A stretch of DNA of 64,000 nt from positions 310,001 through 374,000 of the forward strand of contig WJXW01000010.1 of NCBI GenBank assembly GCA_015832175.1, in the 5' to 3' direction. The notes beneath the pieces were generated by a model. It was given only the letters and a program-made list of their open reading frames with translations. It was not told the origin of the DNA and searched no databases. Source of the DNA: Paraphaeosphaeria minitans. Its lineage: Eukaryota; Ascomycota; Dothideomycetes; Pleosporales; Didymosphaeriaceae. The position numbers were made by a program, and so were the translations under genes. This document shows, in pieces, positions 1 to 33,659 of this stretch (its first letter is position 1; the number at the start of each line of letters is the position of its first letter).

Positions 1-515
1 GCGGGCGTGTTCGGTACATCAGAAAACAGGAAAACGCGACCGTCTGGCAGTCCAGCCTTCCGTGCGGCTGCAACTGCGTTTTTAGAGAGTGAGGGATGTA
101 CAAGAATTATCGATGCTTGAGTGTTCGATATCTGGTGTTTCAATTCTACGTCAAATTAGATACTAGGTTGGTTGACGTGGGCTGTACCAACGCACGTACC
201 TGACACCGTGTAGGCGGGATTGGCGCCACTGAATATTCTCTTAGATCCCACAATGCCCAGATATGCGACTGGCACAAAAATGTGGTTCGGCGTCAAGATC
301 ATGACTACTTCCCTTGGCTTGATACCGAGGCGGTCCAAGCCAAGTGCAAGCCGTTTGGACCATTGCAACAACAATCGCGGGGTGAGGTAATGATTCGTGT
401 CTTGCGCGTCAATCCATATTGGTGTTTCCGTAACTGGCTGTCCTGTTGGGAACAAGTACTCCAGCAAGTTGCATTTTGGAATATTCAAGGAAGGGAAAGG
501 GCTGGAGAAAGGCAT
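1..515 (-). CDS. AMP-dependent CoA ligase, 4-coumarate-CoA ligase-like (5' part only)
   Basis: N-terminal part of an ANL-superfamily acyl/aryl-CoA synthetase, which activates a carboxylic acid as an acyl-AMP and transfers it to CoA. Exon 1 (515-200) begins at the methionine before PFSSPFPSLNIPKCNLLEYLF and contains the family's early block (GLDRLGIKPREVVMILTPNH, then GANPAYTVS). The intron is 199-146 (donor GTACGT, acceptor GTAG). Exon 2 (145-1) restores the expected TVSELKHQI continuation and runs off the left edge in frame at VFLFSDVPNTP. The AMP-binding P-loop and the C-terminal lid lie outside the window. An in-frame ATG 21 codons upstream (578) is less likely because it adds no family sequence. 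The gene diverges from an SDR at 862 across about 350 bp. Family assignment is firm; the substrate cannot be read. Confidence 0.85.
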
Positions 516-29394: not shown

Positions 29395-30618
29395 CTATAT
29401 TATCATTTCTTCATCATTTGCATGCACCCCGTTTGCCACATCCTCCTCCTCCTCGTCCATCTCTTCTAGTGGGTACGTCAATATGGCAGCGACGCTCCCC
29501 AGTGCCTCTAACCTCTTTCCGCTCTCGTGCAAGCTGCTCAGCACCCTCACCTCGCCACCCTCGACGTCTTTGACCCGATCTACCAGTGCGACCCATCGCT
29601 TCCTCTCGGCGAGGTTATGTGATCGGAACAGCGTGTTCGAGATGAGCAGCACGCCGCCTCCCCTGCCGACTGCACCACTCTCCACCGCCCTCTCAACCTC
29701 TCGTGGTCCGTACGCCGCGCGCCCGTCTTCCAGCCGCATGTGCTTCATGAACGTGTCCATGAGTGCGGTTTCGCGGGTGAATTTCGCGTCGGAGAGCTTC
29801 GCCGTGCAGGCCGGCGAGGCCAGCACCTCGGCGAGATTGTGGACGTGTTCACCCGCCGAATGCGCAACCACGATGCTCGGCACCAGCGCCTGGAGGAACT
29901 TGTTCCCCGACCGCACCGCATGCTCCTTGACGAACTGTAGAAACGCCTGCGCGTAGAAGCCCGCGCTCGCAAGCAGCAGCGGCACCGTCTTCTCCGTCTG
30001 CGCATCCCGCTTCGCGCCCTCCATATCCCGCTGCAGCGTACCCAGCAGCGTGCTGTGGAATTTCTCCAGCCCCTTGTTGTGCTGCTCCATGTGCCCCTTG
30101 CCCTTGCGCGGCACGGCCACTTCGACGCGATTCCGCAGGATGGTTTGGTGCTCGGTGATCAGACAGATATTCGCCATTCCCTCGCCCATGACCACCGCCC
30201 ACATCTCCGCTCTGCTGCTCGTATTGCACGCCTCGCTCAGCATCCCCACGGCCACACTATCCCACCCGTCCACCTTCTCGAGCGTAAACTTGCGGTTCAG
30301 CTCCAGATCCAGCGTGTGGTGGCTCCCCAGCTTGACGTGCTCGTTCTCGGAGACCACGCGGCCGGCGACATGCAGCTCGTTGCTTGCGAGGTCGAAGTCG
30401 GTCGACGTGACGGCGATGGTGAGGTCGAGCGCGATGCGCTGCGACGTTACGGCGCCCGCGCCCATGTCTTTGGAGATGCGGCGGATCGCTTTGGCGCGGA
30501 TTTGGTCCGTCGTTTGGATCAGGTTGTACGCGTGCCACATGTCTTCGGGCTCTTCGGGGAGGAGAGTTGCACTGCCTGCGCCGGTTTTTGCCTCGATTTG
30601 CTGGCGGAGGAGCTTCAT
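29395..30618 (-). CDS. DOM34: Dom34/pelota ribosome rescue factor
   Basis: 407-aa pelota homolog, which with Hbs1 splits stalled ribosomes during no-go and non-stop mRNA decay in the cytoplasm. I start at MKLLRQQI, the usual family start, although the frame continues 87 codons upstream. Domain 1 (Sm-like) spans about 1-130 (TLLPEEPEDMWHAYNLIQ). Domain 2 is about 135-270 (ANICLITEHQTILRNRVEVA), where eRF1's GGQ loop is absent as in all pelota proteins. Domain 3 (about 275-385) is the L7Ae-like fold with a family-typical ISNTLFRS. The C-terminus is acidic (EEMDEEEEDVANG). A G9 run at 30654-30662 sits just upstream of the start, in the presumed 5' UTR. Confidence 0.95.
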   Translation of the reverse strand: MKLLRQQIEAKTGAGSATLLPEEPEDMWHAYNLIQTTDQIRAKAIRRISKDMGAGAVTSQRIALDLTIAVTSTDFDLASNELHVAGRVVSENEHVKLGSHHTLDLELNRKFTLEKVDGWDSVAVGMLSEACNTSSRAEMWAVVMGEGMANICLITEHQTILRNRVEVAVPRKGKGHMEQHNKGLEKFHSTLLGTLQRDMEGAKRDAQTEKTVPLLLASAGFYAQAFLQFVKEHAVRSGNKFLQALVPSIVVAHSAGEHVHNLAEVLASPACTAKLSDAKFTRETALMDTFMKHMRLEDGRAAYGPREVERAVESGAVGRGGGVLLISNTLFRSHNLAERKRWVALVDRVKDVEGGEVRVLSSLHESGKRLEALGSVAAILTYPLEEMDEEEEDVANGVHANDEEMII

Positions 30619-31165
30619 TTTGAAGGGGTGCGGCGGCAGGTCGTCTCGTTTGGGGGGGGGGGGTGTAGGTAGCCCGACTCGCATGCGGTGCCTGGGAAAA
30701 TCTGTACCTAGAGCGCCGTGCGCGTTTGACGTGCGCTTTCTGTAGGTATAGTCTATCTCGAAACTAGTGACCTTGGTTGGAAGTCGCAAGCGCGGCGCGT
30801 TGAGGGGCGCCAGTCGTGACGTGGGAGGGGCAGGTCGAGTGTTTATCGATAATACGCAAGCTTTCAACTGCAGGCTCAAGTATCTCCCACAAGAAGGAAG
30901 TCAACCTGCGTAGACTTGACGCAGGTGCTAGAATGAATCCGAAGATTTCAAAACATGTTCAATAGCATATTTTCCTTGAACATCTGTCAAGGTTCGCGTG
31001 CCCGTCATAGGTACCCAAGTTGGCTCGGGCCCAACGTGGACTCGCTTCATCAACTAGGAAGTCGCCTGCAACTCGACCTCGCCACAGAAAGCTCTACGTG
31101 GCTTCATCAGCCACCATCATCTCTCAGAGGCCATACTCGACTCGCACCAAGTTGTTTTTGCTTCG
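30619..31165. other. Intergenic between DOM34 and the tRNA-Thr gene
   Basis: About 550 bp, holding the DOM34 promoter/5' UTR. No supported gene. Confidence 0.4.
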
Positions 31166-31177
31166 TATATATATATT
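31166..31177 (+). promoter_or_regulatory. TATA element upstream of the split tRNA-Thr
   Basis: TATATATATATT ends 31 bp before the first base of the tRNA 5' piece (31208), a spacing compatible with TFIIIB placement for a start just upstream of 31208. It is about 87 bp from the second exon, too far to place a start there. A perfect 12-bp palindrome (ATTTTCGAAAAT) follows at about 31181-31192. Role inferred from position. Confidence 0.5.
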
Positions 31178-31212
31178 GTAATTTTCGAAAATTTTGCCAT
31201 ATTCACCGCCCG

Positions 31213-31263
31213 GTAAGCTCGTCCAATTTCTCAACCTCACGGACCTTTACTAACAATACACAG
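31213..31263 (+). other. Spliceosomal-type intron inside the tRNA-Thr acceptor stem
   Basis: 51 nt beginning GTAAGC, with ACTAAC at 31249-31254 (branch A at 31253, 10 nt from the 3' end) and ending ACACAG. These are the same signals and size as the mRNA introns of neighbouring genes. It splits tRNA positions 5 and 6, where endonuclease-type tRNA introns are not expected in eukaryotes. Removal is inferred, not shown. Confidence 0.75.
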
Positions 31264-31294
31264 CATGGCTTAGTGGTACAGCGTCGCACTCGTA

Positions 31295-31307
31295 ATCCCA
31301 AATGCAA
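31295..31307 (+). other. Canonical 13-nt tRNA intron (position 37/38)
   Basis: Lies one base 3' of the anticodon CGT, the standard place for introns removed by the tRNA splicing endonuclease. Its removal restores a 7-nt anticodon loop and a fully paired 5-bp stem. Confidence 0.8.
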
Positions 31308-31344
31308 ATGCGAAGATCCCTCGTTCGATTCGGGGTGTGGGCAG

Positions 31345-31351
31345 TTTTTTT
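31345..31351 (+). terminator. Pol III T-tract terminator of tRNA-Thr
   Basis: Seven consecutive T residues start two bases after the discriminator A, followed by a second T5 tract at about 31357; this is the usual Pol III termination signal. Confidence 0.8.
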
Positions 31352-33659
31352 GGTGTCTTTTTGGTCTCGTCGCTTCCCTACACCACTACCTACTACTACC
31401 TACATGACATTTTTGGTTTGTTTTTTAAACATCTGCGTGCATTGCGTAGGTAACACACCGCGGACATGTCGTCCACACGTCTTTTTTTTTTTTTTTTTTT
31501 TATTCTAGTTTGGATGCAATGGTCTCTGGCATTCAGCTCACTCGACATACTTGCCCTTGTCCAGCAACAAACATGTCCTATAAGTAGCACAAGGACGTGA
31601 GAATTCCGGCACGGGAGGTTACGGACCTACGCACATACATGTCGCCGCTGATGAGATCTCTGGGGTGGTTTTGGGTAGGATCTGTAGGTATAGGTGCGAC
31701 ACGCGCAACGAGAGTAAAAGTTTTAGAATGAAGCGGAAGCGACCAGCGGTAGGGGTACTGGGTCCATCGCAGATGAGGAATACCGTAAGATGCATGGTCT
31801 TTTTATAGTGGGCTGGTTGAGTATTTATGCTTCCCCTCGGCCTAGTAGCTAAAGGATCACCGATCCTGGTTTCCTGCAACGCATACCGTGGATACGTCAG
31901 TCGTCCCTGCCAGCGCCTTGGACTTGTCTTCTGGTCGTAATTCAGGAAGTAACATGAGTGCCGGGTTGAATAGAACGATGTTTGGAAACAAAACTTTAAG
32001 GCCGTTCCTAACTATAATTACATACAGATCCAGCTCCTGTGATTAAGTACTGGACAATTGGGTTCTTAACTATGAGGACTCCAACTCTTCTAGTGACTCC
32101 CGACAATCTTCTCTGTCATCACTCAAATTAGTTTCAGGGAAGTGGCTGTAGAAGTGTAAATATCGAAGCTAATCAAACCTGCCGCTGCTGTATCGCTCTG
32201 AAAATACTCCGGCATACTTTTGAGTCAAAGCGGAATTAGCTATAAAGTATCGTTCTGCAGCGGATTGGAAATATTTTGTTTATGATAGAGGAGAGTCGGC
32301 CGATTTGCTGGTGGTTTAATCGTTACTAAAATTCCGGCATTGAAAGTAGTCAGGAACAACTGGGCGTTGCAATATGCAGTGCTTATTTGACTTATTCGTC
32401 AATTCTGTACCGTGTAAGCGGCCGTAATGCGGAGCATGGACAGCAAAGTGTTTACGTAATACGCATCTAGGACGACGACTGCAGTTGATATGAAAAATAA
32501 GTGGAGTGATGCATGGGAGAGAAGGTTGCAATGGGCCGTGTATTGAACACTAAGGTGAGGTGAGGCACAGTTAATGTCGCCACTAAATTGAGTGCGGCTT
32601 TAACAAGCCAATAGGTCCTGTAGTTCGGCGGTTAGTGCGCACTGTTACCCAGTCACTGTGCATTACCTTTTTCTAGTTACATCCTAAATCGCTTTCATTT
32701 TAAAACTTTATATACTTAAACTAATATGAAGTTCCAAATACAGTTGTTGGCGCCATAAATCATCTTCAGCGAATCGGCTACTGACTTCGGCGATACCCAT
32801 ACCTAATTGCTGCCCTCGGGAATGGGTCAGAACAAGTACATGCAATGTGGGGCACTTGGCAGGGCTTCCGACCTATTGGACTGTCTACTAATGGCATTTC
32901 GGCCCCAACTTAGAGAGAGAATGAAACCGACTCGGCATTGCAAACTTGCATTCACTGCTATGCCGTAATAAGCGATTTGACAGGTTGCTTGCACCTTTGG
33001 CCCGTAGTGCATTTTCCGCATTGCCTGTCTATTGTCATTTCTCTTAATCGACAGTTGCCTCGGAAACGCTGTATCAACCAACACGCGCCTGATCTGTATG
33101 CACTTGGGAAAGGTCGCGAAGTTTCCACCGTCGTTAGAGTAAAGGCCTGCATTGATCACGCACTGCCAATTGTCGCTCAGCACAACCGCTCGGTGCCGTG
33201 ATATATATGCGATTACGGGAAATATTAGAGTAGGTGATGTCGGGTTCCTCTTCCACTATCGCCTAGTTGAGCGTACGTGACATGAAGATACTAGTCTCAC
33301 GAGCATATTTTGTTCGGAATGGGTTTCAAATAGAGCCATAACTTGAAGGTTTCACAGTCCATCATCATCGGGGTAAAACATTGTCTCTGCCTCGCTGTAC
33401 AGTGGAAAAAACTGTGCCACTCGTCAAGTCCGTACGGTAGGTAGCGGGCTCTTGTGACTTCACACCCGACGGCACAGTGTGACCGACGTTTTGGCCTATG
33501 TCCGAGAGCCTACATCTGGGTATTTCTAGCACGCTACAAAAGAGATACCATTTGAACATCTTTGGAAACAATATCACCTGCCCCTACTGTGTTTTTTTCT
33601 GATTGAACGATTTTGTATATCAAACAGTCATCTCTCTCCCGAAATCGTTGCGCTCCATC
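31352..33659. other. Gene-poor, relatively AT-rich stretch
   Basis: 2.3 kb with dense stop codons in all frames and lower GC than its surroundings. Includes a T19 run (31483-31501). No transposon ends, recognisable transposase fragments or further tRNAs were identified; it may be an old, eroded repeat. Confidence 0.4.

Follow-up and report, generated by a model that had tools for sequence, protein, structure and literature searches.

A split tRNA-Thr(CGU) gene in the window (the whole 64-kb stretch of DNA that was analysed, C10:310001-374000) is most probably, at a rough probability of 0.9, a working Pol III tRNA gene with a U2-type spliceosomal intron, with at least ten others of its kind in the genome of a Pleosporales fungus. 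What the sequence itself shows is the set of intron signals, the exact restoration of the tRNA, a paralogue with an empty site, the position of a TATA element relative to exon 1, A and B boxes left uncut, and a like anatomy in other genes for which every copy found is split. The features of the window gene and the split genes of the genome are listed in Table 1.

Table 1. Elements of the split tRNA-Thr(CGU) gene at 31208-31343 of the window (window numbering) and the split tRNA genes found in the genome.
Feature	Location	Strand	Insertion site	Remarks
Exon 1, tRNA nucleotides 1-5, GCCCG	31208..31212	+		Same letters in the intact C11 paralogue
Spliceosome-type intron, 51 nt, GTAAGC...TACTAACAATACACAG	31213..31263	+	5/6	Refound by genome-wide motif scan
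Branch-site motif TACTAAC	31248..31254	+		Branch A 31253, 10 nt before intron end
Exon 2, remaining tRNA-Thr(CGU), discriminator A73, anticodon intron inside	31264..31343	+		Rfam RF00005 31264-31337
A box TGGCTTAGTGG, uninterrupted	31266..31276	+
Anticodon CGU	31291..31293	+		Hand reading; C11 paralogue is Thr(cgt) in ARAGORN
Canonical 13-nt tRNA intron	31295..31307	+	37/38	Hand reading
B box GTTCGATTC, uninterrupted	31323..31331	+
T7 run, Pol III terminator-like	31345..31351	+
TATA element, 36-42 nt 5' of exon 1	31166..31176	+		Usual location for tRNA genes of the genome
Thr(CGU)	window, C10		5/6
Leu(CAG)			after nt 10	Partial or weak Rfam tRNA hit
Ser(CGA)			after nt 3	Partial or weak Rfam tRNA hit
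Initiator tRNA-Met	C1		38/39	GTAAGT...TACTAAC...TTAG
Initiator tRNA-Met, two genes	C17, C9		46/47, both	Unlike intron sequences; search with mature initiator tRNA
Pro(AGG), two genes			21/22	Motif scans
Ala(CGC)			25/26	Motif scan
Trp(CCA)			23/24	Motif scan
Trp(CCA), second	C14		23/24 (same site)	GTACGT and CTAAT; search with Trp

The insert in the window gene ends in ACACAG, with its last base at 31263, and the body of the tRNA runs from 31264 to A73 at 31343. After excision of 31213-31263, GCCCGCA faces TGTGGGC in an acceptor stem with 7/7 pairs, one of them G-U; the co-linear unspliced register gives 4/7 only. The first-pass annotation had proposed GCCCG, GTAAGC, ACTAAC, CAG and a 7/7 acceptor stem after exact removal, all of which is borne out to the letter. 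Its description of the intron and the acceptor stem therefore stands, and what it left unmentioned is the normal 37/38 anticodon intron (31295-31307). Removing these 13 nt gives, by hand reading, a TCGCA/TGCGA anticodon stem and a 7-nt loop. ARAGORN called a tRNA in the spliced window sequence and none in the unspliced one; it labelled the spliced tRNA as Trp because it placed the anticodon intron elsewhere. Over the 64-kb window the same program reported zero tRNA genes, and Rfam reported a truncated tRNA at 31264-31337 (30.8 bits, model positions 6-65 of 71).

A chance origin of the insert was rejected. Dinucleotide shuffling of the 120-nt 5' flank, with exon 2 starting at its real place and the 3' AG taken as given, produced such an excision with 7/7 pairs in 3 of 100,000 sequences, and ten further split genes were found. 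The minimum-energy fold of the spliced tRNA-Thr, taken without its anticodon intron, is the cloverleaf, no stabler than shuffles (z -0.18), and the unspliced RNA is of ordinary stability (z 0.46). A protein gene across the tRNA was also rejected, the 150-aa ORF at 30955-31407 being a mechanical ORF only. The adjoining minus-strand gene of the window (29395-30879) is Dom34/pelota, and its best named matches are those of Didymosphaeria variabile and Paraconiothyrium brasiliense (92% identity over 82% of the query), followed by Bimuria (87%) and then Kalmusia (83%). These matches make the organism probably a Didymosphaeriaceae-like member of the Pleosporales, the family to which those genera belong.

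A DNA search of the genome (47.45 Mb, 30 contigs) with the window gene returned three places: the gene itself, C11:1784707-1784785 and a Thr-like gene on C7. The C11 match (85% identity over query positions 56-136) is an intact tRNA-Thr(CGU) gene, the first 26 nt of which are the exact product of the window excision, with GCCCG joined straight to CATGG and nothing between. Since this empty site matches the excised window gene, the insert is exact to the base; the boundary allows a one-base shift, and a single choice yields GT-AG. The identity with the C11 gene is stronger evidence for the putative window intron than the shuffle test.

The anticodon arm of the window gene (31284-31320) is closer to that of the Thr-like gene at C7:879352-879433 than to that of the C11 isoacceptor. 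The anticodon of the C7 gene is UGU by hand reading, and ARAGORN calls this gene SeC. The pattern hints at gene conversion among threonine tRNA genes.

The 11 or more split tRNA genes of the genome, the window copy included, cover seven acceptor types (Thr, Leu, Ser, Pro, Ala, Trp and initiator Met) and eight insertion sites, which span the acceptor stem, D arm, anticodon arm and variable loop. Their insertion positions and anticodons were assigned by hand, and their number is a lower bound, with 62 of 1307 first-look tRNA candidates scored. Anticodon introns are also present in the split Thr, Ser, Pro, Ala and Trp genes, and Trp has an A-C mismatch at 31-39 (both by hand reading). The predicted folds of the initiator and Leu tRNAs deviate from the cloverleaf. 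The genome DNA search with the mature initiator tRNA found no intact initiator Met gene, all three genes recovered being split, and the search with Trp found no intact Trp(CCA) gene (2/2 split), although a divergent copy could escape it. The same caution applies to the search for another Leu(CAG) gene, in which the sole copy found was the split one. Initiator tRNA is strongly conserved, so the initiator Met search is the most trustworthy of the three. The split Ser(CGA) gene has an intact isoacceptor gene on C12. ARAGORN, run over the genome, left the window gene and the split Leu(CAG) and Ser genes unreported; a common tRNA finder can therefore miss needed tRNA genes. The initiator tRNA pattern and the split initiator and Trp patterns gave 0 matches in bacterial/archaeal contigs and in viral contigs.

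These genes bear on whether the window copy is simply a dead spare tRNA-Thr(CGU), with an insert that is never removed and the C11 gene doing the work. The first-pass annotation had named another intact tRNA-Thr(CGU) gene carrying all expression as evidence against its proposal. Such an intact gene does exist on C11, which speaks partly against the window copy, as this copy may not be needed. An unspliced acceptor with 4/7 pairs also suits a dead gene. Against this, the stems, the A and B boxes, the TATA element and the terminator of the window gene are intact, and its anticodon stem has diverged from that of the C11 gene (TCGCA/TGCGA versus TGTCA/TGACA), yet both are fully paired. Moreover, initiator Met, Trp and Leu(CAG) are split with no intact copy found in the searches, which means that the cell has to have a way of taking such inserts out. 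We consider a dead window copy unlikely, and the reading does not hold for the set. For the set, the loss of the tRNA by intron insertion, which had been raised at first pass as one of two outcomes, fails on the same three tRNAs. The other outcome, a Pol III pre-tRNA passing through the spliceosome, gains support from the ten further genes of the same anatomy, and it is favoured over gene loss because initiator Met and Trp tRNAs are needed by the cell.

The inserts of the 11 split genes are 49-57 nt long. All of them have GT...AG ends, with the 5' splice site GTAAG in nine and GTACG in two; the branch motif is CTAAC in ten and CTAAT in one, and the branch A lies 9-13 nt from the intron end. 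Excision gives a 7/7 acceptor stem in 11/11. The two Pro genes, the Ala gene and one Trp gene were found by a pattern demanding GTAA and CTAAC, so their motif agreement is not independent; the other seven came from Rfam, BLAST and the first-pass annotation. In six motif scans of the genome, split tRNA genes accounted for 5/5, 2/9, 2/4, 6/9, 2/8 and 0/1 of the matches, many of which were the same split genes refound. The reversed-pattern controls gave 5, 5, 3, 5, 3 and 6 matches, so that the match counts exceed the controls little or not at all (5 versus 5, 9 versus 5, 9 versus 5, 8 versus 3 and 1 versus 6). The evidence that the scans offer for the candidate introns is that the named matches are tRNA genes, and not the number of matches. 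Two new matches of the 2/8 scan, the one of the 0/1 scan and two non-tRNA matches of the 2/4 scan were judged from a summary row.

The inserts were also compared with candidate coding-gene introns of the same architecture located between ORFs in the DNA scanned; these numbered 44 versus 12 in the reversed control. Those of 48-58 nt numbered 22 versus 6, a share of one half in both. CTAAC was present in 12/44 of the candidates versus 5/12 in the reversed control; the set is noisy, and a fragment of tRNA-Lys is counted among the 44. Two other counts were set aside, a looser one (38 versus 22 in controls) as too loose and a strict one (9 versus 1) as too thin, five of its nine being the tRNA introns themselves. 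In this rough comparison the tRNA inserts appear to resemble the genome's own introns, their branch motif being the stronger one.

Among three paralogue pairs (initiator Met of C17 and C9, Trp and Pro), the exons are identical in 72/72, 84/84 and 91/91 letters, a comparison that includes the Trp and Pro anticodon introns and, for Pro, one base beyond the 3' end. The introns of the same pairs are 64%, 67% and 80% identical, and the 5' flanks 50-52%. With the splice signals removed, the initiator introns are no more alike than shuffles (384/1000 reach the score), the Trp introns are weakly alike (23/1000) and the Pro introns are clearly alike (0/1000). The tRNA parts thus appear to be held constant and the inserts to vary save for the splice signals, which we count as a sign of function. 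When only the interiors were compared over 55 intron pairs, the Pro pair was clearly alike; six further cross-tRNA pairs, for which at most 6/500 shuffles reach the score, are above chance, a weak likeness measured against simple shuffles only.

The inserts might instead be taken out by the tRNA splicing endonuclease and ligase, as are the non-canonical introns of archaea and red algae, and not by the spliceosome. Many tRNA genes in this genome have anticodon-loop introns according to ARAGORN, so the canonical pathway is evidently active, and the sites 3/4 and 25/26 are among the archaeal non-canonical sites given in the accessible part of PMC4090602. However, a full bulge-helix-bulge motif, defined as a central helix of 4/4 pairs and both flanking helices of at least 3/4, was present at 0/11 junction pairs. 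The nearest cases were Ala (3/4, 3/4, 3/4) and one Trp (4/4, 3/4, 0/4). All the inserts also carry GT...CTAA[CT]...AG at fixed spacing, for which the endonuclease has no need. Removal by the endonuclease is accordingly held to be very improbable, and spliceosomal removal is the preferred reading.

The promoter elements were examined with respect to the exons. In the Thr, Leu and Ser genes, the introns of which precede or touch the A box, exon 1 is preceded by a TATA element at 36-47 nt. For the remaining eight split genes, the closest TATA was found 42-63 nt upstream. Uninterrupted tRNA genes have a TATA within 65 nt in 38 of 46 cases, and 31 of these place it at -36 to -56. The TATA is thus at a common spacing when measured from exon 1 and not when measured from exon 2, and the machinery is probably positioned relative to exon 1. 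The B box is uninterrupted in 11/11 split genes and the matched A-box pattern in 9/11. Leu is the sole gene with a cut A box, CAGCCGAGCGG, which the terminal CAG of the intron rebuilds in all but its first base. In the Ser gene this pattern finds no match, spliced or unspliced, and by eye the region of the A box is uncut. A T-run of at least four lies within 40 nt downstream of all 11 genes. The boxes and TATA elements fit Pol III promoters, the sites being too few for a statistical claim.

The same data speak to the view that transcription starts just before exon 2, so that exon 1 and the insert would be mere upstream DNA and the 5' strand of the tRNA would be missing or oddly trimmed. The A box of Thr, Leu and Ser, which either follows the insert or needs the last bases of the insert to be complete, would allow this. 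In these three genes, however, the TATA is 36-47 nt from exon 1, as in many uninterrupted genes, and more than 90 nt from exon 2. The view is also inapplicable to Pro, Ala, Trp and initiator Met, where the insert is 3' of the A box, and it seems to us scarcely credible. A start inside the insert was rejected from the TATA spacing.

In the mechanism that we propose for the spliceosomal reading, Pol III would start upstream of exon 1, directed by TFIIIB at the TATA element and by TFIIIC at the A and B boxes. U1 would recognise GTAAGC, and U2 would recognise TACTAAC, on a capless transcript. Removal of the insert by the nuclear spliceosome would build the acceptor stem (Thr, Ser), the D arm (Leu, Pro, Trp, Ala) or the anticodon/variable region (initiator). 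Only after splicing would RNase P, RNase Z, CCA addition and export follow, and in the last step the tRNA endonuclease would take out the anticodon intron (Thr, Ser, Pro, Ala, Trp). The steps after transcription are drawn from general knowledge of tRNA processing.

On this evidence it is likely that the spliceosome is an obligatory tRNA processor in this lineage, for all initiator Met and Trp tRNAs, with translation initiation wired to splicing capacity, and that introns were gained repeatedly into Pol III genes, perhaps as one spreading family. In textbook tRNA splicing, a dedicated endonuclease and a ligase act at one site. If the initiator inserts are spliced, translation initiation would depend on the spliceosome. 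Splicing of these genes would also mean that the spliceosome handles short, capless Pol III transcripts with 5' exons down to three nucleotides plus a leader, and that it must do so ahead of export and of RNase P and RNase Z action. A filamentous fungus would then offer a direct test of splicing without Pol II, of where gained introns come from and of how translation is coupled to splicing.

Several known systems resemble the present one in part. Canonical nuclear tRNA introns, located at 37/38 and removed by the Sen endonuclease, likewise interrupt tRNA genes, and the window gene has one too. The inserts differ from them in their GT-CTAAC-AG signals, in having no full bulge motif and in position: that of the window gene is at 5/6, and the nearest to 37/38 among the 11 is at 38/39 in one initiator gene. 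The bulge-helix-bulge introns of archaea, Cyanidioschyzon and nucleomorphs also occupy odd tRNA positions, some beside a canonical intron, as described in the accessible part of PMC4090602; unlike them, the inserts show the full motif in 0/11 cases and carry mRNA-type signals.

According to the part of PMC5832005 at hand, frequent interruption by an intron is known among small structured RNAs for U3 snoRNA and U6 snRNA only. The spliceosomal introns of fungal U6 and U3 genes are, like the inserts here, short, with pre-mRNA splice sites and located in structured non-coding RNA genes, U6 being a Pol III transcript. Here, in contrast, the host is tRNA, with seven acceptor types and eight sites, and among the parts interrupted is the acceptor stem, on which RNase P and RNase Z depend. 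The single U6 snRNA gene found in this genome (C1:3840467-3840568) is uninterrupted, even though introns of this type in fungal Pol III genes are known from U6. Yeast removes spliceosomal introns placed in its rDNA, that is, from Pol I rRNA (PMC8527467, accessible part). The rDNA spliceosomal introns of lichen-forming and other ascomycetes are similar in that the spliceosome acts on a non-Pol II transcript, as would be the case here; they differ in that the transcripts are Pol I rRNAs, whereas the present hosts are tRNAs with internal Pol III promoters. A search of the open literature by titles and abstract openings, with subscription papers mostly uncovered, found no report of spliceosomal introns in tRNA genes. 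The accessible part of PMC11889510, on rDNA introns in Pleosporales, does not mention tRNA, and those of PMC11782384, PMC3978253 and PMC4133162 hold no tRNA case of this kind.

Some minor observations were made elsewhere in the genome. At C3:2840217-2853194, in a contig of 4.29 Mb, AT-rich tRNAs of mitochondrial appearance (Ile, Arg, Met and one read as SeC) lie in a cluster, which would reflect either mitochondrial DNA copied into the nucleus or a join made in assembly. The tRNA gene at C10:840122-840236 has an unusually long, G+C-rich insert around the anticodon loop, in which two similar stretches, GGGCGGTTGTACGAAG and GGGCGGTGTACGAAG, are present. Finally, C1:4584191-4584266 and C5:1251192-1251267 are similar stretches that share the B-box-like GGTTCGANTCC without a recognisable tRNA, and the pair is perhaps a dispersed tRNA-derived element.
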